Shown here piece by piece: positions 32,329 to 61,587 of a stretch of DNA of 64,000 bases; position 1 is the stretch's first letter, and each line of letters opens with the position of its first letter. This stretch comes from Roseburia hominis (lineage in GTDB: Bacteria > Bacillota > Clostridia > Lachnospirales > Lachnospiraceae), in assembly GCA_040702975.1 (NCBI GenBank), contig CP159990.1, positions 3,100,001 to 3,164,000 on the forward strand. The letters are read 5' to 3'. The position numbers and the translations under genes were made by a program. The notes beneath the pieces are model-generated. The model was not told the DNA's origin and ran no database searches. It worked only from the letters and a program-made list of their open reading frames with translations.

Positions 32329-33657
32329 TTACAATCCGGAAACTACCAATTCTTTCACATAGATGGACGGTGCAATAATCATACCTCCATCTCCGTTGTT
32401 CATCAGGTAATCCTCTCCAATACCCTCGATCACCTGTAACATGTCATAGAAATTGCCTGCCACCGTAATCTGGTTGACGCTTCCGTCAATCTCGCCGTTC
32501 TCAATCTGATAGCCCTTGGAAATCAGTGAGAACTTGCCGCTCACCGGATCTGCTCCGGCGAACATACCATCGCAATTCGTGATGTAAAGTCCGTCTCCCA
32601 TATCACGCATCAGTTCTTCAAGCGGCTTAGTCTCGCCCTCCAGCTTCAGATTCGTAACGAACACTCCCGGTTTACTGCGGCAGCTTTCTTTAAATCCGTT
32701 TCCAGTAGACGCCACGCCATCCTTCTTCGCCTCTTCCTGATTATACAGGAACATCTGAAGCACGCCATCTTTCACGATCTCCTTACGGCTCGTCGGCGTT
32801 CCCTCGTCATCGAAGGCTCTCTGATTTGCTCCACCCGGCAGCTTCGGATCTTCCACAAGATTCACGATAGAGGAGGCAATCCTCTCGCCCTTCTTACCCG
32901 CCAGCTTGCTTAAATCCTTGTGAACCGTATCTGCCGCGAAATTCTTGACGAACATGCCCAGCATCTCGCAGATCACGCTGTTCTTAAGGATGACCGGATA
33001 GGTTCCCGTCTTAATCTGCTGTGCAGCCAGCATTCCTACGGCCTCGCTTGCCGCTTCCGTAGCTGCCGCCGACATATCCAGTTCTTCTGCAGAAAGCGCT
33101 AGAATCTCTCCACCTGCAATCTGCACGACTCCGTCCTTTTCCGCCTCTGCATTTACGCCGAAAAAGGCATATTTGTTCTCATCTTCCATACAACCGCCCT
33201 GATCATTCCGAATGGAAATCCTGCGAATAATCTCGCCGCACTGAAAATGATTGAACTTCTTCACGCCCGGATGTGCCGCGAGCGCTTCCTTCTCCGCCTG
33301 GATCAAACGCTCTGCAAGAATATCCACAGCCGTAAGCTGCTCCTGCTTCTCACACTTCACTTCTGTGAGCGCATTCACGCTGCCCTCTGCATCTGAAAGC
33401 ATCGCTACTTCTTTCAAATCCGCAATCTCGCCCTCGAACAGCTCCTTTGAGAAATCTTCTATATAGACATATCCTGTCTTACCCTGATATTCGCCCTGCA
33501 CGTAGCAGCCTGCCACTTCGCTCTGAAAATTACTCTCCGGAGCGCCCTGGTACACATTCACCGACACCTTGCGGACCTCCTCGGTATAGAACTGTAAGTT
33601 GCAGATCTCATGACTGTGGGCTGCTTCTGTAAATTCCTGAATAAACGTATTTATCAT
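32329..33657 (-). CDS. tldE: TldE/PmbA-type metalloprotease-like subunit
   Basis: 442 residues. PmbA/TldE family: it pairs with TldD to form a heteromeric protease that trims unfolded or modified peptides; TldE lacks the metal ligands. Recognised by the family C-terminus (GFKESCRSKPGVFVTNLKL; NGEIDGSVNQITVAGNFYDM) and by position: its ATG overlaps the tldD stop (ATGA). Last gene of a run that begins with the opp genes. Confidence 0.9.
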   Translation of the reverse strand: MINTFIQEFTEAAHSHEICNLQFYTEEVRKVSVNVYQGAPESNFQSEVAGCYVQGEYQGKTGYVYIEDFSKELFEGEIADLKEVAMLSDAEGSVNALTEVKCEKQEQLTAVDILAERLIQAEKEALAAHPGVKKFNHFQCGEIIRRISIRNDQGGCMEDENKYAFFGVNAEAEKDGVVQIAGGEILALSAEELDMSAAATEAASEAVGMLAAQQIKTGTYPVILKNSVICEMLGMFVKNFAADTVHKDLSKLAGKKGERIASSIVNLVEDPKLPGGANQRAFDDEGTPTSRKEIVKDGVLQMFLYNQEEAKKDGVASTGNGFKESCRSKPGVFVTNLKLEGETKPLEELMRDMGDGLYITNCDGMFAGADPVSGKFSLISKGYQIENGEIDGSVNQITVAGNFYDMLQVIEGIGEDYLMNNGDGGMIIAPSIYVKELVVSGL

Positions 33658-35036
33658 GACTTAATCCCTCCCACTGTCATATTGCTGATGCGGAGCGTCG
33701 GCTGCCCGGCTCCGATATATAATGCGCCGCTTGACGCATAACAGAATCCCTGACGCAGATCATAATCGTCTGCGACCATATCCACGTTCTTAAGGACAGT
33801 ACCTCCGTTTCCGATCAAGGTTGCTCCTCTTACCGGGGTGGTGATCTTACCATTCTCGATCAGATAGCATTCACCGGTACTAAAATTGAAATCACCTGTG
33901 GCCGGTTCTACCGAACCACCGTTGATCGCTTTTACGAATAATCCACGCTCCGTTGCCCGGATGATCTCCTCCGGCTTACTCTTACCCGGAGCAATATAGG
34001 TATTCGTCATACGTGCGACCGGAGCAAATTTGTAATTCTGCCTTCTGGAAGAACCTGTCGGTGCGAGGTTTGCACGCATACCATTCAGGCGGTCTACCAT
34101 ATAACTCTTTAAGATACCATTCTCGATCAGAATATTCTTCTGCGTCGGTGTTCCCTCATCATCTATGTGAAGGGAACCCCACTCATTTGCAAGAGAACCA
34201 TCGTCCACCAGCGTCACGATATCCGAAGCAATCTTCTGCCCCAGTTTCCCACAGAATTCCGATGCGTTCTTTGCGATCACGGTCGCCTCGAGGCTGTGTC
34301 CGCAGGCTTCATGGAACACCAGTCCGCCGAATCCGTTATCCACGACCACACTCATCTGTCCGCCGGGACAAGGCTCGGAATGAAGCACTACCTTGGCCTG
34401 TCTTGCCGCTTCCCGGGCACAGGCCTCCACATCGATCAAATCATAATACTCATGGCCTCTCATAGCACCCGGGCCGTAATATCCACTTTGAATATCATCG
34501 CCATTTTGCGCATAAGCCCCAATATAAAGACGAGTCTTTACACGGGTGTCCTGCACAAAAAGCCCTTCCGTATTCGCGATCTGGACTTCCTGCTCCATAT
34601 CCGTGAGCTTCACGCGCATCTGCACGATCTCCTCATCGTATTCCATACCTGCGCGAATCGCACGGCGAAGCGGCTCCATCCTCTTCTCTGACGGCAGTTT
34701 TGTCGCCAGAATCACGTCTGGACCCATAGAATAGATCTTCTTTTCACCAAGGGCAATTCGTGAAGTCTGCCCTTTCTTCATTGCTTTTGTCAAATCCTTT
34801 ACCAGACCGGACAGAGCTGCCTCTGTCCGCTGGTTCGTATATCCGTAGTAACAGTTTCCATCTTTGAACATTCGGATTCCGACTCCGCTCTCTCTTCCCA
34901 TCTGACACTGTTCTACCGTCTTCTGGGTCGCGAGGGTTTCCTGCAGGGTCTTACTCTCGTCATACACCTCAGCGAAATCCGCTCCTCTAAGCGCTGCCTC
35001 ATCCAAAATGTTCTCAATCATACCCTGTGACAACAT
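33654..35036 (-). CDS. tldD: TldD metalloprotease
   Basis: 460 residues. Catalytic subunit with the HExxxH motif in GLVFHEACGHSLEATVIA; the later RGLFVKAINGGSVEPATGDF and the glycine-rich end TPVRGATLIGNGGTVL match TldD. It acts in the cytoplasm on small or unfolded peptides. Starts 17 bases after oppF ends, on the same strand, so it is probably cotranscribed with the oligopeptide importer, which would deliver its substrates. Confidence 0.93.
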   Translation of the reverse strand: MLSQGMIENILDEAALRGADFAEVYDESKTLQETLATQKTVEQCQMGRESGVGIRMFKDGNCYYGYTNQRTEAALSGLVKDLTKAMKKGQTSRIALGEKKIYSMGPDVILATKLPSEKRMEPLRRAIRAGMEYDEEIVQMRVKLTDMEQEVQIANTEGLFVQDTRVKTRLYIGAYAQNGDDIQSGYYGPGAMRGHEYYDLIDVEACAREAARQAKVVLHSEPCPGGQMSVVVDNGFGGLVFHEACGHSLEATVIAKNASEFCGKLGQKIASDIVTLVDDGSLANEWGSLHIDDEGTPTQKNILIENGILKSYMVDRLNGMRANLAPTGSSRRQNYKFAPVARMTNTYIAPGKSKPEEIIRATERGLFVKAINGGSVEPATGDFNFSTGECYLIENGKITTPVRGATLIGNGGTVLKNVDMVADDYDLRQGFCYASSGALYIGAGQPTLRISNMTVGGIKS

Positions 35037-39028: not shown

Positions 39029-40726
39029 CTATCTTCCCTCTACGTATACGTTCTTCCAACCCGGATGGATGAAGTACAGATTATCCTGGCCGTACTCTGC
39101 ATATTTGTCATGTACGTATGACTTAGAGAACTGATGCGAAACACTTGTCGCAAACGGGCAAGCCACATAATCCTCCATCAGGATTCTTTCTGCATCAACA
39201 TAATTCTGCATACGTTTCTCCGGATCCATCTCTGTCATACCAGCTCTACACAGAGCATCGTATTCCTCATTCTTCCAGTTAGAAGAAATCTGGTTGAAGT
39301 CTGACAGATGGATACTAAGCATATCGTACGGATCATTGTAGTAAGCTCCCCAGGCCATGAAACCAATCTGATAATTTCCGTTGGTCAGGTTATCTGAGAA
39401 GATATCCCACTCACTGAAATCGATCTTCAGGTTGATGCCAAGAGATTCTTTGTATACCTGCTGCAGATACTCACCAAAGGTATGATACCAGTCGTCTGTT
39501 CCTGCCAGAGAGTAAGTAACATCAAGTTTGGACGGATCATCGCCAAGTCCAAGTTCCTTCATACCTTCGATCAGAACGTCTTTTGCAGTCTTTCCGGAAG
39601 CCTCAAGCTCTTCTTTCAGCTCTTTGTTCGTATCTCCTGCTACTTCACGCATGCTCTTTCCGTCTACAGAAAGCGCCGGTGCAATCCAGCCATAAAGTGG
39701 CTCACGAAGTCCGCTGAATCCGATCTCATTCATATCCTCAATATCAACGCCCAGAGAAAATGCCTTACGGATATTCACGTTAGACATGATCGGGTCTGTT
39801 GTGTTGTAGAACTGGAAGCTGATGGTTCCGCCTGAGATATTGGTCAGAACATTGCTGTCATCTGCCTCATATTTCTGAAGCTGTTCCTGTGAGCTGACTG
39901 TGATGAAATCAATCTGTCCACTGTCATATGCGTTTGCAATAGATGTGGTATCTTTCAGAATCTGATAATCAACATAGTCCAAATCAACATTGTCCTTATC
40001 CCAGTACTGATCATTCTTTTCAATTCTCAGAGAACTGTTATGGTTCCATTCAGTCAGTACGAACGGTCCGTTATATACCAGATTCGCTGCCTCAGCACCA
40101 TACTGGTCGCCGTACTTCTCAACGATATCTTTTCTCTGCGGATAGAAAATACTTGCATCGGTACTCTCCAGGAAACTTGCCATCGGGCTTGTCAGTGTAA
40201 TCTCGAGTGTGTGCTCGTCCAAAGCCTTAACACCCAGTTCTTCTACCGGTTTTTCCCCTGTGCTGACTGCGTCGTAGTTCAGAATCGGAGATACAAAATA
40301 AGAGTTCGGACAGCCTGTTGCAGGATCAGCACTTCTCTGCAGAGAGTATACATACTGTTCAGCGGTAACCGGCTCACCGTCGTTCCACTTTCTGTCTTCG
40401 CCAAGGTGGAAAGTCCATACATTACCCTCGTCGTTTACTTCCCAACTCTCAGCATCTCCCGGCATAACCTCATACTTGCCGTCTCTCTGCTCAATACGGA
40501 TCAGACCTTCCATTACGTTCATCATGATCTCGCTGGAATAGGTGTCAGAACGAAGGCTGACATCCATTGTGGTCGGTTCGGCAGCAAGATATGTATTGAT
40601 ATACTGTCCGCCTCCCTCATCGCCGCCTTTGCCTTCTCCTTCTGACTTTTTGTCTCCGCCACCGCAGGCTGTCAGGGATAATGCCATAACGCCTGTCAGT
40701 AAAAGAGCAAGCCATCTCTTCTTCAT
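39029..40726 (-). CDS. oppA: Oligopeptide-binding lipoprotein OppA
   Basis: 565 residues from ATG 40726, chosen because GGAGG lies nine bases upstream and the lipoprotein signal begins there: MKKRWLALLLTGVMALSLTA followed by the acylated cysteine CGGG. A charged glycine-rich linker leads into the SBP_bac_5 domain (EPTTMDVSLRSDTYSSEIMM; WNDGEPVTAEQYVYSLQR). It captures peptides outside the membrane for OppBCDF. First gene of the operon; promoter at 40792-40820. Confidence 0.95.
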   Translation of the reverse strand: MKKRWLALLLTGVMALSLTACGGGDKKSEGEGKGGDEGGGQYINTYLAAEPTTMDVSLRSDTYSSEIMMNVMEGLIRIEQRDGKYEVMPGDAESWEVNDEGNVWTFHLGEDRKWNDGEPVTAEQYVYSLQRSADPATGCPNSYFVSPILNYDAVSTGEKPVEELGVKALDEHTLEITLTSPMASFLESTDASIFYPQRKDIVEKYGDQYGAEAANLVYNGPFVLTEWNHNSSLRIEKNDQYWDKDNVDLDYVDYQILKDTTSIANAYDSGQIDFITVSSQEQLQKYEADDSNVLTNISGGTISFQFYNTTDPIMSNVNIRKAFSLGVDIEDMNEIGFSGLREPLYGWIAPALSVDGKSMREVAGDTNKELKEELEASGKTAKDVLIEGMKELGLGDDPSKLDVTYSLAGTDDWYHTFGEYLQQVYKESLGINLKIDFSEWDIFSDNLTNGNYQIGFMAWGAYYNDPYDMLSIHLSDFNQISSNWKNEEYDALCRAGMTEMDPEKRMQNYVDAERILMEDYVACPFATSVSHQFSKSYVHDKYAEYGQDNLYFIHPGWKNVYVEGR

Positions 40727-43930: not shown

Positions 43931-44003
<73 letters not shown>

Positions 44004-44086: not shown

Positions 44087-45196
44087 CTGGACAGAGGAAA
44101 AACGTTATAGTGCCGAATTGGCGCAAAGACGCTGTGATGAAAATAAAAAGACACATGGCAAAGAACTAAAAATCGGGAATGATTTGCAGTTTGTACAGTA
44201 TGTAGAAAAGAAAATTTTAGAGGAAAAAAAATCACCAGAAGCAATATTGTATGATATCGAGAGGGAAGGAAATATATTTGCTACAAAAATTTGTAAAGGA
44301 ACATTATATAATTATTTAAGAAATGGAATTTTTCTCAATGTAGGAATGGAAGATCTTCCGATGCCAAGAATGAAAAAGAAAAAAGAGAAGGCGATGAAAG
44401 TTCAAAAAAGAGCGAGCAGAGGAACGAGTATAGAAAAGCGTCCAAAAGAAATACAAGAGCGAAAAGAACTAGGGCACTGGGAGATGGATACTGTGGTGGG
44501 ACCGCGTGGAAAATCTAAGTATGCATTTTTGGTTTTAACAGAACGGAAAACTTTAAAAGAAATTGTAGAACCATTGAAAGATCATACAGCCAAAGAAGTA
44601 ATTGCTGCAATGAATCGCTTAGAACGTGAAATGGGAGAAAAGAAGTTTCGAGAAGTATTTAAAAGTATTACAGTTGATAATGGTGTAGAATTCAGTGATT
44701 TTGAGGGAATGGAACGTTCGCGAAGGAATAAAAAGCCACGCACAAAGTTATATTATTGTCATGCTTATTGTAGCTGTGAACGAGCCAGAAATGAGAATCA
44801 AAATCGAATGATCAGACGGTTTTATCCAAAAGGTAAGAATTTTGATGGTATTACGAGAAAAGAAGTAAAAGAGTTGGAAGCATGGATGAATACTTATCCA
44901 CGTCCGGCATTTGATGGAAAAACAGCATCAGAAATGTATGAAATGTTTCAAGATTTAGAAAGGGAGGGAACAGCTGCTTAAATAATCAAAATAGAATAAT
45001 TAAGAAATCCTCTTGATTGTTTTATAATTAAGGGGTTATTTTTGTACTCTTTTATTATATAATGAATCTGTAGAAAGGCTAAAGAACAGGAAAAAGAGCT
45101 GCTGTTTGTTCTGAAAAGGATTTAGAAAGTGAATGTATAAAAATTTTTGAAAAAGTTATTCACTAAGTATTGACAAGTGCGTTTTCCTCTGTCCAG
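44087..45196. mobile_element. IS30 segment apparently inverted, bounded by inverted repeat
   Basis: CTGGACAGAGGAAAA at 44087-44101 recurs as its exact reverse complement at 45182-45196. Both copies encode W-T-E-E in the same frame of an IS30 transposase: the left one opens the C-terminal part (plus strand), the right one closes the N-terminal part (minus strand). Flipping 44087-45196 would join the parts into one ~355-codon gene on the minus strand. Confidence 0.65.
44088..44981 (+). pseudogene. IS30 family transposase, C-terminal part
   Basis: 298 codons open from the TGG at 44088 (the frame also runs a short way further left, into non-IS30 sequence). It has the IS30 catalytic core: D in GHWEMDTVVGPRGKS, D in ITVDNGVEFSDFEG and E in RARNENQNRMIRRFYPKG. 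The N-terminal helix-turn-helix is missing here and found at 45163-45363 on the other strand. No proper start or ribosome-binding site, so unlikely to be active as arranged. Confidence 0.85.
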
Positions 45197-45363
45197 TCAC
45201 TATTCCGATGAATATACACCCCTCTTACATTGATTTCTCGCCAGATGGTAGGATAACTAAACTCTGTTAAAACTGCAATCTCTCTGATGCTGTGTCCTGC
45301 GCGATATAGTACTTCTATCCGTAAACGATCATGATATGTAACATGTTCATAATTCTTTCCCAT
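45163..45363 (-). pseudogene. IS30 family transposase, N-terminal part
   Basis: 66 codons starting MGKNYEHVTYHDRLRIEVLY with a good GAAAGGA site: the HTH_38 domain of IS30 (AGHSIREIAVLTEFSYPTIW). It follows the family up to SDWTEEN and then runs into unrelated sequence and a stop. Complements the C-terminal part at 44088-44981. Confidence 0.85.
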
Positions 45364-45896: not shown

Positions 45897-47633
45897 CTAT
45901 TGCATGGCACTATTATCCTTATACTCATACCAGCTAAGCTGTGCTTTCCACAATTTCTGATAGAGGGAATCAGGAACTTCCAACAATTCTTCATGGGTAC
46001 CCTGCTCAACAATCGTTCCATGATCAAGTACGAACACACGGTCGGCAGCTTTTGCGATGCTGAGTCGGTGTGAAATAACAACAAGCGTATTCTCTTTACC
46101 TGCCTGACGGAATATAAAATCATTCAATTCCTTCTCATATAGCGGGTCGATGGCAGAGGTCGGCTCATCCAACACAAAGAAGTTTCCTCCGTGATAAAAT
46201 GTCCTAGCCATCGCAAGCTTTTGCCACTGACCGCCGGACAGGTCTGTCGTTCCAAATTCCCGACCGAGGATCTCATTTTGTGGAATCTGATCAAGATCCA
46301 TTTCCCTGAGAAGTTCCTCTGCAAGTTTCCTATCCTCCAACTCTAATTCCTGTGGCGCTATATTTTCCAGAAGCGTTAGTTCATAGCGCTGATGTTCCTG
46401 GAACATGACAGAAAATGCATCGGAAATTTTCCCTTCTACTCTTCCCTCTGTGACAGACAGCAAGCCTGTCAGCAGCTTGGAAAGCGTCGTTTTTCCAGCA
46501 CCATTTACCCCAACCACTGCGACCTTCTCCCCGGCATGTATTGTAAAGTCCAGATTGTGAAGCACTGCTTCTTTCCCTGTCGGGTAAGTAAATCCTGCAT
46601 GGTCAAATGCAATCTTTCCGGTCAGTTCCGAACAGCGTATTTCATCTTCGCTGTCCATAAATAAGAAAAATGGCTTTACCATCATACGGAACTGCGAGAA
46701 ATATCCAAGATCTGCAAACAACTGTGCATACTGGTTCTGCAACTGCAGTGTCGTGGATATCGCGACCATAAATTCAGCATAGTCAATCGAACCATGGAAG
46801 AAAAGCCACCCCGCCAGCACATAGACTCCTGCTGTTGCCAAAGCGCGCACAAGCGTCAAAAGTGTGCGGATCTTCAGTACCTGTTTCTCCACTTCATATT
46901 CTTTTTCTCGCAATGCATTTGAGGAATCCTTCCATTTATTAATCAAAAACTCACTGCTCTCATACACAAGCCGTTCCTTTGCATAACGGATATCAAGTAC
47001 ACAAAGCCTGCGCTCTTTCTCTTCTTTTGCAAGAGATGCAAGTAGTGTACGCCTACGATTTTTCAAAATGCCCTCACTGACATTTTCCAGAAGTGCCGGC
47101 ACTGCCGTCAACACAATAAGAAGAAAAAATACCGGATGGATTGTTGCCACATAGCCAGACAAAAACATGATAGACAGCGCTGCGCCAGACAGCGTGATCA
47201 CACATTCCACAACCCGATAAACATTAATACTGGCGACTTTTGCCTCCCACAATCTATTATAAAATGACGGTGTCTCATAGTAACTCATCGCTATTTTCCC
47301 GCATTTTTCGTGAAGCAAAAGCTTCGTCTTCTTCTCAAATTCCAAAAGTCCCCCAAACTGAACTGCTACCCGCTCATAATAAATCGTATATCCCTTCAGG
47401 AGAAACAGATAGACACCGTACAATACAACTGGCAAAAGAAGTTCTGCAACCGGCTGAGTCCCAAATACTGTGTGCTCAGCAAACTGGTAGATGCGACGGC
47501 TGATCTGGATGCCGATAACCGGAAGGATTGCCAGAAACAGATGTACAAACACCATCCCGGTAAAATGCCGAGGCATCAGTTTTGCTCCCAGACCGATGCA
47601 TCTTATTACGGTCTGCTTACTATTTTGTTTCAT
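45897..47633 (-). CDS. ABC exporter half-transporter, subunit B of RiPP cluster
   Basis: 578 residues: six-helix membrane domain (~20-320), then the nucleotide-binding domain with Walker A VVGVNGAGKTTLSKLL, canonical signature LSGGQWQKLAMART and Walker B FFVLDEPTSAID, H-loop VVISHRLSIAK. No N-terminal C39 peptidase, so it does not cut leaders itself. Its start overlaps the end of the other half-transporter by 14 bases. Together they likely export the modified peptide. Confidence 0.88.
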   Translation of the reverse strand: MKQNSKQTVIRCIGLGAKLMPRHFTGMVFVHLFLAILPVIGIQISRRIYQFAEHTVFGTQPVAELLLPVVLYGVYLFLLKGYTIYYERVAVQFGGLLEFEKKTKLLLHEKCGKIAMSYYETPSFYNRLWEAKVASINVYRVVECVITLSGAALSIMFLSGYVATIHPVFFLLIVLTAVPALLENVSEGILKNRRRTLLASLAKEEKERRLCVLDIRYAKERLVYESSEFLINKWKDSSNALREKEYEVEKQVLKIRTLLTLVRALATAGVYVLAGWLFFHGSIDYAEFMVAISTTLQLQNQYAQLFADLGYFSQFRMMVKPFFLFMDSEDEIRCSELTGKIAFDHAGFTYPTGKEAVLHNLDFTIHAGEKVAVVGVNGAGKTTLSKLLTGLLSVTEGRVEGKISDAFSVMFQEHQRYELTLLENIAPQELELEDRKLAEELLREMDLDQIPQNEILGREFGTTDLSGGQWQKLAMARTFYHGGNFFVLDEPTSAIDPLYEKELNDFIFRQAGKENTLVVISHRLSIAKAADRVFVLDHGTIVEQGTHEELLEVPDSLYQKLWKAQLSWYEYKDNSAMQ

Positions 47634-49290
47634 TCACATACATCTCCTTCTGTGTCTGATAAAGCTTCCGGTAAATACCATCCGCACGCATCAATTCTTC
47701 GTGACTTCCGTGTTCTGCAAGATGTCCCTGATCCAACACAAGGATCTCATCCATCTGACTGATTGCACCGAGCCGGTGTGTGATAAACAGCGTTGTCTTC
47801 TCGCGAAGAACTTTCTGACTCTTCACATAGACATCTCGCTCAGAAATCGGATCGAGGCTTGCAGTCGGTTCATCTAAAATGATAAAGTCCGCATCTGACA
47901 GAAATGCTCTTGCAACTGCAAGCCGCTGTAACTGTCCTTTTGAGAGCAACGTTCCTTCTTCTGTCAGAAGCGTAAGCGGCGTATCAAGGCCTTGCTTCAG
48001 GCCACCGCACTCCAACATATCAAGCACTTCCAAAAGTTTTTCATCCGCCAGTGACAAATCATTTCCCATCAGAAGGTATTCTCTTACTGTTACTGGATAA
48101 ATTTGAAAGTCCTGAAACAACGCTGTCTTCTTCCATGTGCTGCCACAGAATATTCCACCAGTCGGCTCATAGAGATCCAAAAGCAATTTTGCAAGCGTTG
48201 TCTTCCCAGCTCCATTCACTCCAACAAGTCCATAATGTTTTCCTCGCTCAAAAGTAAAAGAAACATCTTTTAGCGTATCCTCCTTATTTCCATCGTAGCG
48301 AAAATGAAGATGGGAAAGAGATAACGAACTACATTCCTCTTTTTCCTTCTGTTTCTCTCGCGGCACATATGCTAAAAATGCTGCTAATTCCTTCTGGAGC
48401 CCGCGAAATTCCCGGATTGGAAACACACTCTCGGCACACCTGGAAAGCTCATCAAGCACCCGTGCGATCATCTCCGTGATTGCCGTATAAGTGCCAAGAG
48501 TCATTGCCGCTATTGTCTGCGGCAAAGCAAAATAAAACAAGGTAAAGACAGTAATCCCAATTAAAATACTTTCAAGCAAAACCTGACCACGGAATCTAGC
48601 AAGTCCACTCTTTTTATTCACTCTAGCCGCCCGGTCAAATTCTTCTGAAAATCGTGCATCCATCGCCTCTGACGTACCGTAAATACGGCGCTCATAAGCA
48701 TATTCCCGTTTGATCTGCAGATCAGAGATATAATTAAACCGACGCGCAGCCTTCATATAGCGCTGCCAGAAACCAAATGTATTTTTTGTAGCACGCACAT
48801 TAACATAAAATGCGGCGCAAATCAGAGCCGTTAACACGAAAATGACCAGAAATGACGTATTTCTCATAAACCATAACAGTACTGCCACAGACAGTCCAAG
48901 CTTCATCCAGCATACCAGTGCATCTGTATATTCCAACGATTTTTTAAAATATTCTTCTGATCTTCGGATCTTTTCCTGTGTATCCTGCTGTTCCAAAACA
49001 CAAAGCGGAAGTTTCTCACAGACATGCATAACTGCCTCCGGCATTTTCGCCTGACAACTTCTCGTCACGCGAAGCCGTACTGCTATCTCAAATATATGTA
49101 ACAGATTCTCGATAAAAAATAAGGACACAATCCATATAAAATCTTTCATGATCATTTTGGCAGAAGCGGCATACACAATGTGATCAATTAAAAAGAACCT
49201 GCAAAACACTTCTGCCAGAATCACGATGTAAATGCATACATTCATAATAATTAAGCTTAAATGCGACTGTTTAAAAAAATTTCTATTCAT
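47620..49290 (-). CDS. ABC exporter half-transporter, subunit A of RiPP cluster
   Basis: 556 residues from ATG 49290, behind AAGGTG (an upstream GTG at 49299 is the alternative). Membrane domain with six helices, then Walker A LVGVNGAGKTTLAKLL, Walker B FIILDEPTASLD, H-loop LFITHRLG. The signature is LSKGQLQRLAVARAF, with K for the first G of LSGGQ, as in the degenerate site of heterodimeric exporters; the partner has the canonical form. Ten bases after the protease gene. Confidence 0.88.
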   Translation of the reverse strand: MNRNFFKQSHLSLIIMNVCIYIVILAEVFCRFFLIDHIVYAASAKMIMKDFIWIVSLFFIENLLHIFEIAVRLRVTRSCQAKMPEAVMHVCEKLPLCVLEQQDTQEKIRRSEEYFKKSLEYTDALVCWMKLGLSVAVLLWFMRNTSFLVIFVLTALICAAFYVNVRATKNTFGFWQRYMKAARRFNYISDLQIKREYAYERRIYGTSEAMDARFSEEFDRAARVNKKSGLARFRGQVLLESILIGITVFTLFYFALPQTIAAMTLGTYTAITEMIARVLDELSRCAESVFPIREFRGLQKELAAFLAYVPREKQKEKEECSSLSLSHLHFRYDGNKEDTLKDVSFTFERGKHYGLVGVNGAGKTTLAKLLLDLYEPTGGIFCGSTWKKTALFQDFQIYPVTVREYLLMGNDLSLADEKLLEVLDMLECGGLKQGLDTPLTLLTEEGTLLSKGQLQRLAVARAFLSDADFIILDEPTASLDPISERDVYVKSQKVLREKTTLFITHRLGAISQMDEILVLDQGHLAEHGSHEELMRADGIYRKLYQTQKEMYVNETK

Positions 49291-49300
49291 ACTATACACC

Positions 49301-50262
49301 TTAACAATTGATTCCTAGCAACACTTCATTCTCAACATCATTTTTTACATCATATAAAAGCTTTCCATATATTTTATATGCATTTGAAATGCTTTGTTCG
49401 CAAATTAATTCAATAAATTTTTGTTTGCCTCCTACCTTTAATAATTTTAAGCAAAACTTTTTTGCAATAAAATTTGCATAATTTCTATCATAGTTATCAT
49501 AGTTATTCCAAATATCAAAAATATCAATTATGTGAGAATTAAATTGATAATTATTATTATATTCAATAATGTTAAAACATTCCGCAACTCCTTCATTGAT
49601 AAATTTAGCTTTGAAATTTATTCTTTTTTTTAAATAATAACAAATTACATGTGTAAGCTCATGACCACATTCTTCCCATATATACACATGGATAGAACCC
49701 AGTGGAGGATTTGCATAACTTAAATTACCACATATTTCATCTTTATGGGAAGAATAAATAAATATGTCAATTTTTTTTGGTAAATGTACGTCAAAAAAAC
49801 TTTGTATTATATTATATCTAATTGTATATGCATCAATAAATTTATCACAGTTTATCTTACTAAAATTATCTACAAAATAAAAACGTAGAAAATCATTTTC
49901 AAAAAAATAATTGACTTTATCAGCTAAATGCAGTATCGTGATCCAGTTTTGACTTTCATTTGAAAAATCACCTCCCATTGCAGATGACTTAAGTAGATAT
50001 TTTTTAGCCAGTTCATAATTCCCAACCGAAAACGAACCTAATCCAAGATATGCAATCCCCTTTGACACATCAAATACATATTCTGAATTATTCTTTTTAA
50101 GTACATTCTGAATTATCTGCATTCCTTCATTGATATATCCCAATTCAAATAGCGTCAAACCAAGAATATACATTTCTTGAATACTATTATTTGCAAAAAT
50201 ATACTCACATGAATCTAATATCATTGAATATTTTTTTTTTTGTATAATTCCAAAATCTCCAT
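49301..50262 (-). CDS. TPR-containing gluzincin protease, frameshift at an A11 tract
   Basis: N-terminal ~100 residues look like tetratricopeptide repeats (ILGLTLFELGYINEGMQII; LGLGSFSVGNYELAKKYLLK). The C-terminal part has HELTH (residues 188-192 counted from ATG 50224) and NEGVAE (210-215), the zinc and glutamate signature of MA-clan gluzincins. It may remove the precursor leader. Odd: the ATG with a proper ribosome-binding site (AAGGAGC) is at 50262, but that frame enters 11 A and stops after 13 codons; one more A would join it to the main frame with sensible sequence. The next ATG, 50224, has no ribosome-binding site. Expression may depend on slippage, or the gene may be switched off. Confidence 0.75.
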
Positions 50263-50372
50263 GTAATGCTCCTTATTTAATTTTTGTTATATTGTAGTAG
50301 TTAAATTTATTTTTTTATTACGACATAAGCATTTATATAGAATCTTCAAAAAATATTTCTTTTCGGATTAAT

Positions 50373-50408
50373 ATATCCTACAAGTATGATACCATATTTG
50401 TAGGATAT
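50373..50408 (-). terminator. Hairpin between maturase and protease genes
   Basis: 11-bp perfect stem ATATCCTACAA/TTGTAGGATAT with 14-base loop, ~40 bases after the radical SAM stop. No long T-run follows, so it may attenuate or protect mRNA ends rather than terminate fully. Confidence 0.55.
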
Positions 50409-50449
50409 TCTTTATTTAGCTAATATATCGAACTTATCTTATATTTATT

Positions 50450-51715
50450 TTATTCATAAAAATATGAAAGAGACGTCATATCAAATGGAGTACAATTTCT
50501 TTTATCATAAACATTTTTATATAAGATGCAGCCTCCAAAACAATCTGGAAGATGTCTGCATTTTATACATTGTTTATCTGCAAAGCAATCTGCTGAAGAG
50601 TACCAGTTAAGTAAACTATTAGGATCTATTGAAAGATTCCCCTCTTCATCTATACTACCAATTTTTCCATTAGGAAGTGACATTGTATTGATGCATTTCC
50701 ATAAACTTAAATCAGGAGTTAGATAAAAAACTTTTTCATCACAACATGCCTCACAAGATCGATTGTAGTATCGGTTATTGGAAAGTTTATATCCAATAGA
50801 TGCAGCCATGTCATAAAATTCTTTTAAATTGTTGACATTATTAAAATTTTTTTCTGAATAAGACTCTGTTGTATAAATAACTCTAATAGATACAATAATA
50901 TGTTTTCGTAATTCCTTTCGTATCTGCAGTAACGCATCTTTAATCTCTTCAACAGAGTTATTGTTTAAATTTATTCGAAGATAGAACTCTGATCCTGGGG
51001 CAATTAAATACCTTTCCATTTTTTCATTAATTATTTTAATAAGACAATCAAATGATGGTTTATTATTTTTAAATTTTCGTGTTTTATCATGACTTTCTTT
51101 TCCACCATCTAGCGTAATTTGAAACGTTTTACAATTATGTTCCATTAACGTGTCAATTATTTCATCTGTAATTAATGAGCCATTAGTTACAATAGAAGTA
51201 GAGTAATCAAAGCAATATTGTTGCGATAGCTCCTTTGTATATTCTAACATATCTTTAAATTGTTTGTATAAAAGAAGCGGTTCGCCTCCAAATAAACTTA
51301 GTTCGACATGGCGATAATGTTTAAAATTTTTTTTGGCATACAGTTTTAATGCCTTAAAATAGGCAGATGATGTTTTTATTTCACGTTGAGGCGCCTCAAA
51401 ACAGTAAGGACATGCAAAATTGCATTCAAAAGTAGGCGTCAAGATGAGTGTCAACTCTGATGTGTCAAAATAATTCTTTTTATAAATGTATTCAAGCGCT
51501 TTGAACTCATCCATATTTTCTTCAATTATAAATCCATTATCTTGAAGATATAATTTTTCTTCTTCAGAAAACAAACATTCAACATTAGTTAGTTGATTAT
51601 CTTCAAAATCAACAGTACAATCTTCTTGTATTTGTAATACTGCCTTTGATATTGAATTGTAGATATAGAACTTTCCATCAATATTGCATAATATATTGTA
51701 ACTACTAAATTTCAT
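50450..51715 (-). CDS. Radical SAM/SPASM peptide maturase
   Basis: 421 residues from ATG 51715 (GGAG six bases upstream; ATG 51727 is possible). N-terminal ~85 residues resemble a precursor-binding (RRE-like) region by position only. Radical SAM core: CNFACPYC, the CxxxCxxC cluster at C98/C102/C105, and FGGEPLLLYKQF. The C-terminal SPASM region has CIKCRHLPDCFGGC, matching CX2CX5CX3C, plus further cysteines (CEACC, KCINT, NCTPF) for two auxiliary iron-sulfur clusters. Such enzymes install thioether or carbon-carbon crosslinks in peptides; the precursor at 52119-52277 is the evident substrate. Confidence 0.9.
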   Translation of the reverse strand: MKFSSYNILCNIDGKFYIYNSISKAVLQIQEDCTVDFEDNQLTNVECLFSEEEKLYLQDNGFIIEENMDEFKALEYIYKKNYFDTSELTLILTPTFECNFACPYCFEAPQREIKTSSAYFKALKLYAKKNFKHYRHVELSLFGGEPLLLYKQFKDMLEYTKELSQQYCFDYSTSIVTNGSLITDEIIDTLMEHNCKTFQITLDGGKESHDKTRKFKNNKPSFDCLIKIINEKMERYLIAPGSEFYLRINLNNNSVEEIKDALLQIRKELRKHIIVSIRVIYTTESYSEKNFNNVNNLKEFYDMAASIGYKLSNNRYYNRSCEACCDEKVFYLTPDLSLWKCINTMSLPNGKIGSIDEEGNLSIDPNSLLNWYSSADCFADKQCIKCRHLPDCFGGCILYKNVYDKRNCTPFDMTSLSYFYE

Positions 51716-52118
51716 ATAACTCTCCATTCCTCCATCTTCCTGCTGGTGGCGCAAATAGTAATGAAAGAAATTAACACTTTCAAGTTTTCATGTTACAAAA
51801 GAATCGTTTATAAAGATATTTTACCATTAAGCATCAAATCGAACGCTTATTTATGGATGTGTAGGATTCTTACCACTAATAAGTAAAAAATCTTTAATTA
51901 AAATGTGTTCACGATATATCAACCGGAAAATCTAACAAATTTTTTGTAGTGTAAAGCCTTATATGTTTGTAATGTAAAACATATACCTATTTTCACAATT
52001 ATTACACAATTTGTTATTCTTCACATAATCAAAAAGTTCAAAATACATACGAACTTAGAATTTATATTTCATTTCAATATAGGTGTCGCATCGTATTAAC
52101 TATTTATTTGCAAATATT
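51716..52118. other. Gap between precursor and maturase, no gene seen
   Basis: 400 AT-rich bases. A weak hairpin ATATGTTT...AAACATAT-like sits near 51961-51984. Might hold a promoter for the maturase or a partial terminator that raises precursor levels; I see no convincing box pair. Confidence 0.4.
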
Positions 52119-52277
52119 TTATAGCGCCCCACAATTTCCTGTGCATTTACATGCATCAAGAGGCGAAATATGCTCTGTTCTATGTAACTCACTGGCCATT
52201 GTTTCAATTTGTTGAATTGGATTTGTGCGTGCAGATTTAATTACTTTAAAAATATCAGATTTCAAATCTTTTTTCAT
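52119..52277 (-). CDS. RiPP precursor peptide, three cysteines at the C-terminus
   Basis: 52 residues from ATG 52277, behind AGAGGTG eight bases upstream. A charged, helical leader-like part (MKKDLKSDIFKVIKSARTNP then IQQIETMASELHR) is followed by the tail CKCTGNCGAL holding all cysteines (C43, C45, C49). Small size, cysteine-rich end and position before a SPASM maturase mark it as the modified peptide. The tail does not match sactipeptide, SCIFF or ruminococcin C patterns that I know. Frame could also start nine codons earlier, without a ribosome-binding site. Confidence 0.78.
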   Translation of the reverse strand: MKKDLKSDIFKVIKSARTNPIQQIETMASELHRTEHISPLDACKCTGNCGAL

Positions 52278-52690: not shown

Positions 52691-52954
52691 TTGTCCCCCC
52701 GCAAAAACTCTCAAATTATCACTGGATGTATTCCTGCACTTGATTTCATAAAAAGTCTAATTGCACGCATCACAGAAAAATATTTTAAGATGGTTCGTTA
52801 TTATGGAATATATACAAAACATCATAAACAAAAATCAAAGCTTCACAAATCTATCTTTTCTGAAAAAGGAATATACATTTGTAAGTTTTACAACTGGCAG
52901 AACATGGCTCTTCCAGATTTTAGAAATAACTCTCTTAAATATCCTACATGTTGA
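52691..52954 (+). pseudogene. IS91-type (Y2) transposase remnant
   Basis: A plus-strand fragment resembling the C-terminus of IS91-family rolling-circle transposases: KYFKMVRYYGIYTKHHKQKS, and the decayed zinc-ribbon-like ending NSLKYPTC. The catalytic tyrosines and most of the protein are missing. Marks a boundary between the RiPP island and the mobilisation module. Confidence 0.65.
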
Positions 52955-53007: not shown

Positions 53008-55203
53008 TCACTTCTTTGAAAACTCATATGCTCGGCGGTACTGTCTCATTTTTTCAACCGGTAAAGTAAAATATTTTTTGACCTGTTTTTCTGACAATCC
53101 ATGCTCCATTCCAAGCAAAATTTCATTCAACTGTTCTTCTGTCAACTGCTTTGCATAACGCAAAATACATTCATATATGCTTCCGGATAGATTCCACTGC
53201 TCTTCCACTGACTGCGTTATTTCTTCAGATTCTGTACCGAAATTCGGTACGGACGCTTCCTTTTCTGTTTCCTGACGAACTTTCTGTGCCAATTCCATAA
53301 TTTCCTCTTCTGTCAGTTGTGGTGGCTGATTCCAGTTTAAGTACAATATTTCATCTTCATCCATTTCAATAATCTTTATGTGCGGATTGGTTTTTGCCGC
53401 TTCGCGATAAAATTCCAATTCCGAACGATTTAAAAATTGGATATTTGATTTTGATTCAATTGTTTTATATGTCATCGTTTTTTTGTTATATACAACTTTT
53501 ACTGGATGCCGATAACCATTCTTTCCAGCCAGACGTTCTGACTCTTTCCAACGTGATGTTCGAAACGGCACAGCCTTTTTATCATAAATTGGATATTGAC
53601 CTTCCAAAAAGATAATACAATCTGTCCGTTTCATTCTTTTTACTTCGCCGGGAGTCATAAGTCCTCGTCCTGCCCGCGCATGATTCCGACTGGAATTTCC
53701 ATGATTTCCTGTTGTAACACTATCATTTCGCGTATCTATAGTCATATCCCCCAATAGCTTTGAAATGTATTCATGAGTGGAAAAGGATGCCGGACCAGCT
53801 CCCAAATAGATCATTGTCGCACAGTTATCCAAAAAAATCTCCCACTTCTCATTTGGAAATATGGCTTTGATTTGTGCAAAAGACTGCAGTACTGGAACAA
53901 TCGACAAATTACGACTTCGTATTGTTCCCATTAAAACTTCTGTCCGATTTGGTTTTGGTCCCGCATAAAATTCATCCGCCCAAAGTCTTACATGTATTGG
54001 CAAACTGCCTCCGCATTGATGGTCGGCAATCCGGATCAACACATCAAACAGCTGTGTATAAAACATGGAAATCAAGAAATTAAATGACTCATCATTATCT
54101 GGCAATACTAAAAATAATGCTGTTTTTTTGTTCGGATCACCATTAACACCCAGTCCCAAACTCGGAATATCAATATCATCTTCTTCAAATAAGCGTTTCA
54201 ATGCTGCTGTTTCACATAAACGCAGCATTGCATTTACCATGATAATAATAGATCTAACCGTATCTGGAGCACCTTCTTTTAATTTACGATAGTCACGTAC
54301 CGGTGGATAATCATCCCCATGTATCCTTGCAAGACGGTTCATCTCCAATTGTAATTCTGTCGTTTCATTCTCCCCATCTTCTACATGTTTTGATTCCATA
54401 TTGACATATGTCATAATATGATTAAAATCCGCCTTGCGCTTTTCTTCCATAGCTCCTAACCATTCACAGAAGAAGATAGCCTGCAGATATAACGCTACAC
54501 CGTCATCCCAAAACGGATCTCCTTTCATTGCATCCGGAGGCTTTACCGATGCCTGTATATTTGTAATCAGTCGGATTACATCCGTTTCTTTTTCTAAATA
54601 TGCCATGGGATTGTAACGGTCTGATTCCTCCGGATTAATCAGATTAAAAGATTTTACAGTGATTCCATGCGCTTTCAAATAATTTCCATGTTTCCTAAGC
54701 AAATCTCCCTTGATATCTAAAATCACATTAGTTCCAGATGCAAGTAAAATATTAGGAGTTACGACCGATGTTGTTTTATAGGAACCAGAACCACCGATAA
54801 TTAACATATTTCGGTTTGATAACAGTTTATCAGATACGGCTATATTCTTGCTTAAATAAGTATTATTTTTTTCTTCCGGATCGCGCAGCATTTTACTTAA
54901 TTTTTTCACATCTCCCCATTGCTCTGTACCATTTTCCTTCCCAAACTGATAATTCCGGTATTGATCAACATAATATGCAACAAACATAATCCATCCAAGA
55001 AAAGCAACGCCCATCCAACTGATCGTACGGTCTGTCCACCAATTCTGAAACGGATGCATAAAAATGTAGAGTAGTTTTTGCTGCATATTATTTAGTGCAA
55101 CTCCTGGAAGAAGATACAGACCACAACAAAAATAGACCATAATCAGGATAAAAATTAGCAATAGTACTAACATGCCCCAGGGGGTTTTTCTTCGCTCGAT
55201 CAT
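53008..55203 (-). CDS. VirD4/TraG-type conjugative coupling protein
   Basis: 731 residues. Two N-terminal membrane helices (MLVLLLIFILIMVYFCCGLY; GVAFLGWIMFVAYYV), Walker A GGSGSYKT at 137-144, Walker B HVRLWADEF, and TraG signature regions (NTYLSKNIAVSDK; RNLSIVPVLQSFAQIKAIFP). It brings the relaxase-DNA complex to a type IV secretion channel. Near residue ~665 the sequence ASVPNFGTESE is encoded by a 17-bp palindrome that recurs in two other genes here. Six bases after the PcfB-like gene. Confidence 0.93.
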   Translation of the reverse strand: MIERRKTPWGMLVLLLIFILIMVYFCCGLYLLPGVALNNMQQKLLYIFMHPFQNWWTDRTISWMGVAFLGWIMFVAYYVDQYRNYQFGKENGTEQWGDVKKLSKMLRDPEEKNNTYLSKNIAVSDKLLSNRNMLIIGGSGSYKTTSVVTPNILLASGTNVILDIKGDLLRKHGNYLKAHGITVKSFNLINPEESDRYNPMAYLEKETDVIRLITNIQASVKPPDAMKGDPFWDDGVALYLQAIFFCEWLGAMEEKRKADFNHIMTYVNMESKHVEDGENETTELQLEMNRLARIHGDDYPPVRDYRKLKEGAPDTVRSIIIMVNAMLRLCETAALKRLFEEDDIDIPSLGLGVNGDPNKKTALFLVLPDNDESFNFLISMFYTQLFDVLIRIADHQCGGSLPIHVRLWADEFYAGPKPNRTEVLMGTIRSRNLSIVPVLQSFAQIKAIFPNEKWEIFLDNCATMIYLGAGPASFSTHEYISKLLGDMTIDTRNDSVTTGNHGNSSRNHARAGRGLMTPGEVKRMKRTDCIIFLEGQYPIYDKKAVPFRTSRWKESERLAGKNGYRHPVKVVYNKKTMTYKTIESKSNIQFLNRSELEFYREAAKTNPHIKIIEMDEDEILYLNWNQPPQLTEEEIMELAQKVRQETEKEASVPNFGTESEEITQSVEEQWNLSGSIYECILRYAKQLTEEQLNEILLGMEHGLSEKQVKKYFTLPVEKMRQYRRAYEFSKK
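53234..53250. repeat. 17-bp palindrome GTACCGAANTTCGGTAC, copy 1
   Basis: GTACCGAA-A-TTCGGTAC, 8-bp arms and one central base, within the virD4-like gene; encodes VPNFGT in frame. Confidence 0.85.
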
Positions 55204-59389: not shown

Positions 59390-60184
59390 CTATGTTTCCT
59401 GTAGTTTCTGTAGACGTTTCATCATATCCGTAGACAAATTTGCTGAAGCAAAGCGTTCAATTTCTTTCAATTCCATTCCCTGCTCCAAACATTGCAATAA
59501 ATATTCCTTCTGACCGTCTGTATAGTCCTTGTTTTTCAAATAACGATCAATAAATATCTTCGTATTTGCACTCCGTCTCCAGTATCTGAACAATCTTTGA
59601 AAAGGGTTTCCGAAAAGCTTCGGCTGGATCTCTACCCCTACATCTTCCTGCTGTTCTTTTTGCGAAGTCTGTTCCAACCTGTTTACAATTTCCTGAAGTT
59701 CCTGTTGCCGCTTTTCATTTTCCTGTTCTTTCTTAATTCCAACACGCTCTGCTTCCACTAATTGTTTCCGCAGCAATGCAATCATTTCATCTTTTGATGC
59801 AACCAACTCTTTTTGTGCTTCTGTCTGTTCTTTTAAAGCCTGTTCCAAACCTACTTCAATAGACTCTCTTACTGCTTTACTTTCTTTCAAATCGTCTGCA
59901 ACTTGCTTTTTCAACAGTTTCACAGTATTTTTCAGTTCATCAGATGCTTCATACTTTTCCTTCAAGTATATTTCGCGACAAGATTGTAGTTTAGAAATAT
60001 TCAGATCCTGCAGCTTCATAATCTGTTCTTCTGTCATTCCATCCACAATACAGATCAACAACCACATCCGTTTTAAATCATCTCCTGTTTTCTCTAATAC
60101 TTCTACTACACCTTTTTCCACGCGTAATGAATTTGCAAACAATAACTGCCAGTTTTTTGCATTCTGCCTTATTTCTTCACCCAT
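59390..60184 (-). CDS. Coiled-coil protein next to relaxase
   Basis: 264 residues; its start overlaps the relaxase end by 16 bases. A long charged coiled coil (~85-175: KNTVKLLKKQVADDLKES; KDEMIALLRKQLVEAE) lies between two short helical ends; the C-terminus (YLKNKDYTDGQKEYLLQCLE) resembles a small helical bundle. No known family that I can name; a structural partner of relaxase is the natural guess. Confidence 0.6.
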   Translation of the reverse strand: MGEEIRQNAKNWQLLFANSLRVEKGVVEVLEKTGDDLKRMWLLICIVDGMTEEQIMKLQDLNISKLQSCREIYLKEKYEASDELKNTVKLLKKQVADDLKESKAVRESIEVGLEQALKEQTEAQKELVASKDEMIALLRKQLVEAERVGIKKEQENEKRQQELQEIVNRLEQTSQKEQQEDVGVEIQPKLFGNPFQRLFRYWRRSANTKIFIDRYLKNKDYTDGQKEYLLQCLEQGMELKEIERFASANLSTDMMKRLQKLQET

Positions 60185-61587
60185 ACTCTTTCTGCTCCTT
60201 TCATTTTTGTACCGAAATTCGGTACAAAGGATTTTGGTTTTTTTATTTGTAAATAGAGAAATGCATCTTCTTTCTCACGTTTCTGAATTCGATACAATAA
60301 TCTTTTTTCTTCTCGGATTTTTTGTATCCGTTCCTCCAGATGTGTTTCAACAGTGTCTGGAAAATGTTCTTGCATCTGTTCCAAACGATCCTGTAAACTT
60401 TCAAAAGAACCATCCTGCTTTGAAATCATCGCAAGCTTTTCCAACAGCATCTTATACTCTTGATAAGCAGTATCCCTCCTTAACAAAGCCTCTGTATCTT
60501 TTTGCTGATACAAAATTTTTTCTTCTTGTTTTACTTCTCTTAACCGCTCCTTAACATCTTCCATTGTTTGGACATTCCTTCGCAGCAAATAGTTCGTTTC
60601 CTCCCGGTATTGTTCAATACGCAGTAAGATTGTCCGGATTTTTTTTTGATCCATCACATACGGATTTTGACAAAAACGATATCTCCGGCGAATTAGAATC
60701 TGTGTCTGAAGATATTTTTTCTGTAGTCCTTTTACAAGCACCGGCTGCTTCGTATGCCAGCGACAGGCATATAACTTTTTTATTCCCTCTCGTTCATAGT
60801 AGAATTGTTTTTTATCTGAGATTCGTAACAGCAGTTTTTCATAAGAATATCGTTCTCCTAAACGATAATTTCTCCAGGCGCGTTTTTGTCCAGGTGCCAA
60901 AAAAGAATAATATGTTCCATACTTTTTAGATACGCCATGAGAGATTTGATATCCCATTTGTCTCATCTGTTTTTCAAATTCCTGTATCGAATTCGAACTG
61001 CGGACTGCAGCATCAATATCTGCCCGGATAATGGTTTTCCAATCCATTGTCCCTTGTGTTTTTGCATTCCACTCTGCATAAGAAATTCCTTTACGCTCTT
61101 CATCAAACACAAGCTGTTTTAATCCATATTCCTTACAGATTTGATCTGTAACCGGCTGAATAAATTTTTCCCAATCTCCTTTCTCATATCTGTATTTATA
61201 TCCACTCATACGATTCACGGAATTGAAAATAATATGTCCATGTAAATGTGCATGATCATTATGTAAAGCGAAAACATAGTCATAAAAATCTCCCAAATAT
61301 TGTTCACAAAATTTCCGGATTACCTGATATGCCGTCTGCTCATTTGTTTCTCCCGGTTGGAAACTAATGACAAAATGATATCCTTGTCTTCCTTCTGTCT
61401 TTTCCCAATCCTGCTTGGTATCTAACATTCCCTGATAGACTTCTTCTGCTGTAGTTCCAACATTTCCTCCAATCCAAAGTCCTTCTTCTGTTTTATCCGG
61501 ATTCAATACATATGTGAGGGAATTATATAAATGCTGACTTTTTCCTTTCTTTCCCTGTTTAATATTCATCAGTTTCGTAATCGCCAT
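60169..61587 (-). CDS. Relaxase (MobP/Relaxase_mob family)
   Basis: 472 residues. N-terminal relaxase domain with conserved tyrosine region (HLYNSLTYVLNPDKTEEG) and the metal-binding motif HNDHAHLHGHIIFNSVN (H109, H112, H114...) characteristic of Relaxase_mob. Nicks and covalently binds DNA at oriT to start transfer. The C-terminal half is basic and helical. Its last residues FVPNFGTKMK come from palindrome copy 3. MobC lies nine bases upstream. Confidence 0.92.
   Translation of the reverse strand: MAITKLMNIKQGKKGKSQHLYNSLTYVLNPDKTEEGLWIGGNVGTTAEEVYQGMLDTKQDWEKTEGRQGYHFVISFQPGETNEQTAYQVIRKFCEQYLGDFYDYVFALHNDHAHLHGHIIFNSVNRMSGYKYRYEKGDWEKFIQPVTDQICKEYGLKQLVFDEERKGISYAEWNAKTQGTMDWKTIIRADIDAAVRSSNSIQEFEKQMRQMGYQISHGVSKKYGTYYSFLAPGQKRAWRNYRLGERYSYEKLLLRISDKKQFYYEREGIKKLYACRWHTKQPVLVKGLQKKYLQTQILIRRRYRFCQNPYVMDQKKIRTILLRIEQYREETNYLLRRNVQTMEDVKERLREVKQEEKILYQQKDTEALLRRDTAYQEYKMLLEKLAMISKQDGSFESLQDRLEQMQEHFPDTVETHLEERIQKIREEKRLLYRIQKREKEDAFLYLQIKKPKSFVPNFGTKMKGAERVWVKK
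60209..60225. repeat. 17-bp palindrome GTACCGAANTTCGGTAC, copy 3
   Basis: GTACCGAA-A-TTCGGTAC in the 3' end of the relaxase gene; encodes VPNFGT in frame. Confidence 0.85.

Follow-up and report, generated by a model that had tools for sequence, protein, structure and literature searches.

This report concerns a putative peptide-maturation locus of Roseburia hominis, contained in a stretch of 64,000 nucleotides of contig CP159990.1 (assembly GCA_040702975.1, positions 3,100,001 to 3,164,000, forward strand), which we call the window and whose numbering is used below. A first-pass annotation, made from the letters alone, had proposed that five genes running in the same direction encode a system for a ribosomally synthesized and post-translationally modified peptide (RiPP). 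All five are present on the minus strand, from 52277 to 45897: a precursor peptide, a radical S-adenosylmethionine (SAM) enzyme with a SPASM domain, a metalloprotease with an HExxH motif, and two ATP-binding cassette (ABC) half-transporters (Table 1). The precursor sequence ends in DACKCTGNC-GAL, and its ATG start follows AAAGAGGTG, a recognizable ribosome-binding site, which agrees with the good translation signal originally noted. The open reading frame (ORF) of the maturase opens with TTG, but homologues start at an MKFS motif and the ATG at 51715 is therefore the likelier start.

Precursor and maturase are separated by about 390-400 bases and maturase and protease by about 225 bases, while a single base lies between the protease stop and the start of ABC1, which in turn overlaps ABC2. 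The cluster had been described as AT-rich, which holds for the precursor (34.0% GC), maturase (29.5%), and protease (25.6%) against a window mean of 43.0%, but not for the two ABC genes (42.4 and 45.0%). This step in composition suggests a mosaic origin. Promoter and terminator scans of the locus found no excess over shuffled sequences, and Rfam returned one tRNA only between positions 40000 and 56000, on which ground a regulatory RNA in this region was rejected. A near-perfect palindrome of 36 bases (50373-50408) lies between the maturase and protease genes.

Table 1. Features of the locus and its surroundings (window coordinates).
Feature	Position	Strand	Basis
Precursor peptide gene, 52 aa (leader, DACKCTGNC core, GAL tail)	52119..52277	-	ORF, ribosome-binding site, homologues
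Conserved core DACKCTGNC	52131..52157	-	Sole exact genome match of the degenerate core pattern; conservation across homologues
Radical SAM/SPASM maturase, N-terminal leader-binding-like domain	50450..51715	-	Start ATG 51715 or 51727, ORF opens 51754; model and fold match
Metallopeptidase, HExxH...E, TPR-like N-terminal part, proposed leader peptidase	49301..50224	-	Motif conservation; weak Pfam support, in relatives only
ABC half-transporter 1 (ABC1), without C39 domain	47620..49299	-	ORF, NCBIfam, Pfam
ABC half-transporter 2 (ABC2), without C39 domain	45897..47633	-	ORF, NCBIfam, Pfam; 14-base overlap with ABC1
IS30-type HTH_38 fragment, left side	45163..45363	-	Family match
Y2_Tnp transposase fragment, right side	52691..52954	+	22.0 bits, cutoff 20.9
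VirD4-type coupling protein, neighbouring conjugative element	53008..55203	-	Family match
MobA/VirD2-like relaxase, same conjugative element	60169..61587	-	Family match

A family of small precursors with a near-invariant core

The first finding of this study is that the precursor belongs to a family whose core hardly varies. The degenerate core pattern has a single occurrence in the 4.26-Mb genome, and a search with the single precursor retrieved nine proteins, itself included, among 5.8 billion, with homologue identities of up to 85%. A profile of ten precursors (that of the window, four database proteins, and those of loci L085, L081, L003, L084, and L004) retrieved 85 proteins at E<=1, of which 78 have a C-x-C-x-x-N...C tail and 68 exactly DACxCTGNC (LDACTCTGNC in 42, LDACKCTGNC in 19, and RDACTCTGNC in 7). 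The motif is missing from the other seven, five being truncated, frameshifted, or chimeric (P0006, P0008, P0009, P0187, and P0205) and two being variants (P0184 and P0199). Rather than a feature of the window cluster only, the core is thus a widespread and almost invariant motif. In an alignment of 70 of the 85 proteins, from which 15 truncated, chimeric, frameshifted, or longer-start/near-duplicate sequences had been dropped, core columns are identical in 68-70 of 70 (A-C, 68 and 69), except for the variable x, which is T in 46, whereas the best leader columns ahead of L40 reach 53 of 70; part of this contrast is selection because the search profile included the core. Between the window and four further loci, core codons show synonymous differences, except at the variable position and for a two-residue insertion in L003. 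These synonymous changes, together with the homologues, rule out a chance ORF. Across the 70 precursors, each Pfam or NCBIfam family that matched did so for one protein at most, always with an E value above 0.007, in line with the original view of a peptide unlike known classes. Two proteins are of separate interest: P0192 has the core DACTCTGNC twice in tandem, and P0205, found in 26 contigs, joins the N-terminal part of a precursor in frame with the C-terminal part of the protease encoded in the cluster, an arrangement that loss of the maturase would produce, whether in nature or by chimeric assembly.

Such precursors recur beside relatives of the maturase. An alignment search of genome contigs with the maturase gave at least 80 loci, which is not a full census (a single-sequence scan gave 25 stretches, none a confirmed relative). 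The CTGN motif, exact or longer, is present in L081 (43% maturase identity) and L003 (39%), with a variant in L004 (35%), and no CTGN-type small ORF was found in the other 77 of these loci (23-29% identity) by a fixed-pattern scan of ORFs of 25-110 aa, which missed the L004 variant and left out L001, L002, L083, L084, L087-L089, and L103-L105. Whole-genome searches added L085 (genome G047), L106 (G1251), and L086 (G685), the last with the core variant CIDCTGNC and a maturase with internal stops, although its precursor and both ABC genes are open. A short precursor with a leader and a conserved core, exact or varied, therefore stands beside the maturase in the window and six other loci (L003, L004, L081, L085, L086, and L106). 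The first-pass annotation had staked its proposal on homologous clusters having a conserved small cysteine-containing gene, and such a gene occupies the equivalent position in related loci. An indirect sign that further pairs share a contig is that the longest contig for 11 precursors has exactly the same size as that for listed maturases.

A quick maturase tree, computed without bootstrap, comprised 65 rows (41 of 80 genome-contig loci, 20 of 120 listed maturases, the window, L085, L106, and a SCIFF control). All 17 maturases known to have a CTGN-type neighbour belong to a single clade of 26 rows (Shimodaira-Hasegawa-like approximate likelihood ratio test, 99). The other nine rows have no CTGN label and unknown neighbours, because of which the label makes eight changes on the tree instead of one. 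The family is also seen on one archaeal contig, L003 lying on a Nanoarchaeota contig that bears archaeal-type NMD3 and TFIIS-ribbon genes, and this archaeal placement therefore has sequence support. The maturase is rare in sampled genomes: 2 of 397 from the same family, 2 of 391 from the class, 1 of 398 from the phylum, 2 of 130 around G685, and 2 of 249 around G1251. The samples share members, and the genomes with the maturase number four in all.

The maturase and the probable chemistry of the product

The second finding is that the maturase is close in kind to peptide-modifying enzymes but falls short of the family cutoffs displayed for them. Both cysteine motifs first attributed to it are there, CNFACPYC (CX3CX2C) for radical SAM and CIKCRHLPDCFGGC (CX2CX5CX3C) for SPASM, and the general SPASM model TIGR04085 is matched by 22 of 23 relatives. 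In NCBIfam (release 20), the maturase scores below cutoff for every family among the best 25 of 54, and the other maturases of its clade likewise stay below the family cutoffs displayed. The top model, covering almost the entire protein at 197.2 bits, is that of CefB, the Cys-every-fifth maturase (NF038107), but its cutoff is 600 and the window core has no Cys-every-fifth repeat. The next models, TIGR04463, Clo7bot (TIGR04334), and geopeptide (TIGR04280), give 160.2, 148.7, and 124.2 bits against cutoffs of 525, 600, and 400, and the model of the PapB ranthipeptide maturases (NF047865) gives 91.0 against 340. The freyrasin-type repeat of PapB systems is absent from the window precursor.

The closest parallel is SCIFF, the CteB-CteA system (TIGR03974), which likewise combines a radical SAM/SPASM enzyme having an N-terminal leader-binding domain with a small cysteine-containing peptide substrate. 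CteB, a thioether-forming enzyme, is the best PDB sequence match, the best Foldseek match, and the joint-best VIA match of the maturase, whose predicted model aligns with it over the whole length and has the leader-binding-like domain and CteB-like fold expected of ranthipeptide maturases. However, the window maturase scores 80.3 bits against the SCIFF cutoff of 425, the SCIFF core has six cysteines where that of the window has three in nine residues, and unlike in SCIFF the cluster includes a protease and an exporter. The genome encodes a genuine SCIFF maturase at another site (G000:C1:2953741-2955147; L088:5741-7147), which as a control scored 799.1 bits. A protein-modifying enzyme such as anSME was rejected as nearest kin, since CteB is higher by sequence and by Foldseek; grouping with enzymes that act on proteins, which the first-pass annotation had named as fatal to its proposal, is thus not what is seen, the nearest models and folds being peptide maturases with CteB leading.

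By analogy with these enzymes, the product is probably thioether-crosslinked and ranthipeptide-like. According to PMC9413430, PapB makes Cys-Asp and Cys-Glu thioethers. We consider it unlikely that the enzyme instead modifies Cys, Thr, Asn, or Asp without crosslinking, for example by formylglycine-like oxidation, epimerization, or carbon-carbon bond formation, in which case the three cysteines would bind metal. Somewhat less probable is sactipeptide-like chemistry, in which cysteines are linked to alpha carbons. While the cluster architecture would be identical, the leading matches by sequence, Foldseek, and VIA point to CteB, which is a non-alpha maturase, and the relatives by NCBIfam score include PapB, Clo7bot, geopeptide, and CefB, not sactipeptide models, with the RumMC model reaching only 42.4 bits.

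Protease, transporters, and genomic setting

The remaining genes would supply leader removal and export. The protease has HELTH followed by a Glu in NEGVAE. In all four loci with a protease, the HExxH motif, the Glu of the downstream [ND]EG[IV]A, and several residues beside them do not vary, which is the motif pattern of the gluzincin (Peptidase MA) metallopeptidases named in the first-pass annotation. It is 28-37% identical to its counterparts in L081, L085, and L106. Pfam PF13485 (Peptidase_MA_2) weakly matches two of these three relatives (best E 3.7e-4), but neither the window protease nor, at E 0.01, that of L106; weak tetratricopeptide repeat (TPR) matches also occur in relatives only. 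A predicted model from two sequences (predicted local distance difference test, 45.6) was too poor for a fold search. The review PMC10885120, in which the word ranthipeptide does not occur, describes metalloproteases of several families (M1, M61, M16, M50, and M103) that remove leaders in a number of RiPP classes. The window protease resembles them as a Zn-type HExxH enzyme in a RiPP cluster and differs in its TPR-like N-terminal part and in a Peptidase_MA_2 match that is weak and confined to two of three relatives. The genome also has a TldD/PmbA pair (window 32329-35036), a metallopeptidase type that the same source links to RiPP maturation and to the trimming of some RiPPs; the cluster protease is therefore one candidate leader peptidase, and others are possible.

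In Pfam, the half-transporters match ABC_tran plus overlapping or weak P-loop and other models, and no C39 peptidase is listed for either window protein, as first annotated, nor for the ABC proteins of five relatives. They are thus not C39-containing exporters (PCAT), which have an N-terminal C39 domain. ABC1 has no other match at E<=1e-120 in 149 further genomes of the same family, and at this level of similarity it is therefore no widespread housekeeping exporter.

Counting the window, a protease is present in four of seven clusters and a transporter in six; protease and ABC pair recur together in three of the six other loci. L085 has the order of the window (precursor, maturase, protease, ABC, ABC), and L081 has it with a second radical SAM/SPASM gene in between (L081:9118-10533; best model PapB, 181.1 bits against a cutoff of 340). 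In L106, the order is ABC, ABC, precursor, maturase, protease. L086 has precursor, broken maturase, and two ABC genes, and L004 has precursor, maturase, and a single 687-aa ABC protein, both without protease. In L003, precursor and maturase were found, and no protease or ABC gene was seen in the downstream stretch. A junction S-[P/L]-L-D-A-C is present in all four clusters with a protease and absent from the three without, a correlation that we treat as a lead, as it involves seven clusters of shared ancestry. L003, L004, and L086, and the different GC content of the ABC genes, would speak for the protease and transporters being unrelated neighbours, precursor and maturase alone forming the maturation unit. 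We find this improbable, since the protease is adjacent or nearly so in L081, L085, and L106, each of which also has an ABC pair, and since ABC1 has no other match at E<=1e-120 in the genomes of the same family.

The surroundings fit a cluster carried as cargo of mobile DNA. Insertion sequence (IS) wreckage had been reported on both sides, and there is indeed an HTH_38 fragment on the left and a Y2_Tnp fragment on the right, where a TraG/VirB4-type ATPase accompanies the coupling protein and relaxase of the conjugative element. Also to the right are ParA/ParB-like and pilin/sortase-like genes (ORFs identified by eye) up to about 3186.6 kb, followed by apparent core genes; no integrase was noticed there, and no search aimed at integrases was made. 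A tRNA-Thr lies at 43931-44003. In L106, the cluster has on either side a 746-bp direct repeat (94% identity between the copies) that corresponds to the end of an addA-like gene (named by eye; about 6-11 kb of the reversed locus). A long inverted repeat beside a transposase-like ORF is located just upstream of the L085 precursor (L085:2565-2665). The core DNA pattern had no match in viral contigs, the maturase alignment gave 13 viral loci, all weak or partial and none with the motif, DNA comparison with plasmids and phages gave no match, and protein comparison yielded only 26% Clo7bot-type matches on two Paraclostridium plasmids and 25-27% matches in three records of a phage collection.

Such a setting could also mean that the cluster is decaying cargo that makes no product in this strain. 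IS fragments and a conjugative element adjoin it and relatives have decayed, as seen in the internal stops of the G685 maturase and in the P0205 fusion, but all five window genes are open, their catalytic motifs are intact, and precursor and ABC2 have recognizable ribosome-binding sites, which makes this the least probable alternative.

A proposed pathway and the meaning of a conserved core

The RiPP-type system first proposed has held up: its small cysteine-containing precursor is conserved, its SPASM maturase is of the peptide type, and a protease and an exporter without C39 domain co-occur with them. We consider it likely that the locus is a RiPP cluster, of a family outside the libraries searched, in which a SPASM-modified core is trimmed by a protease and exported by ABC transporters. 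SPASM maturases are already familiar in RiPP systems; what is new is a precursor-maturase pair without a name in NCBIfam release 20, Pfam, or the literature searched, where the motif strings retrieved only a DNA motif CTGNC and one unrelated fish Hox item (subscription papers and outside preprints being beyond scope). In the pathway that we propose from fold and family, the leader of the ribosomal precursor would dock on the N-terminal domain of the maturase, whose radical SAM/SPASM body would crosslink the DACxCTGNC core, most likely through ranthipeptide-like thioethers that join core cysteines to the side chain of Asp, Thr, or Asn. Co-occurrence suggests that the TPR/Peptidase-MA-like protease may then cut close to the conserved S-[P/L]-L-D junction, and that the ABC heterodimer may export a product of some 10-12 residues.

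What is surprising, judged from the sequences compared, is a near-fixed core in a family with maturase identities as low as 35%. Because the core is near-invariant while the leader drifts, a conserved signal, metal-binding, or cofactor-like product fits better than an arms-race bacteriocin. That the product is an exported signal or metal-binding peptide, not a classical bacteriocin, is the part of our reading held least securely. More speculative, and in our view doubtful, is that DACxCTGNC is a cross-domain RiPP core under near-absolute conservation, comparable to PQQ or mycofactocin and not to bacteriocins. The nonapeptide, with its three cysteines crosslinked, would then be exported and act as a signal, metallophore, or redox peptide common to its hosts, which would be bacteria that carry it on mobile elements and a nanosized archaeon.

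If our interpretation is correct, it would add a RiPP family that has no name so far, together with a maturase clade of its own and a candidate leader peptidase of a little-used type, and its nine-residue core would be small enough for direct synthesis and nuclear magnetic resonance. A core fixed in bacteria and on an archaeal contig would also make it testable which RiPPs are conserved molecules, not weapons.

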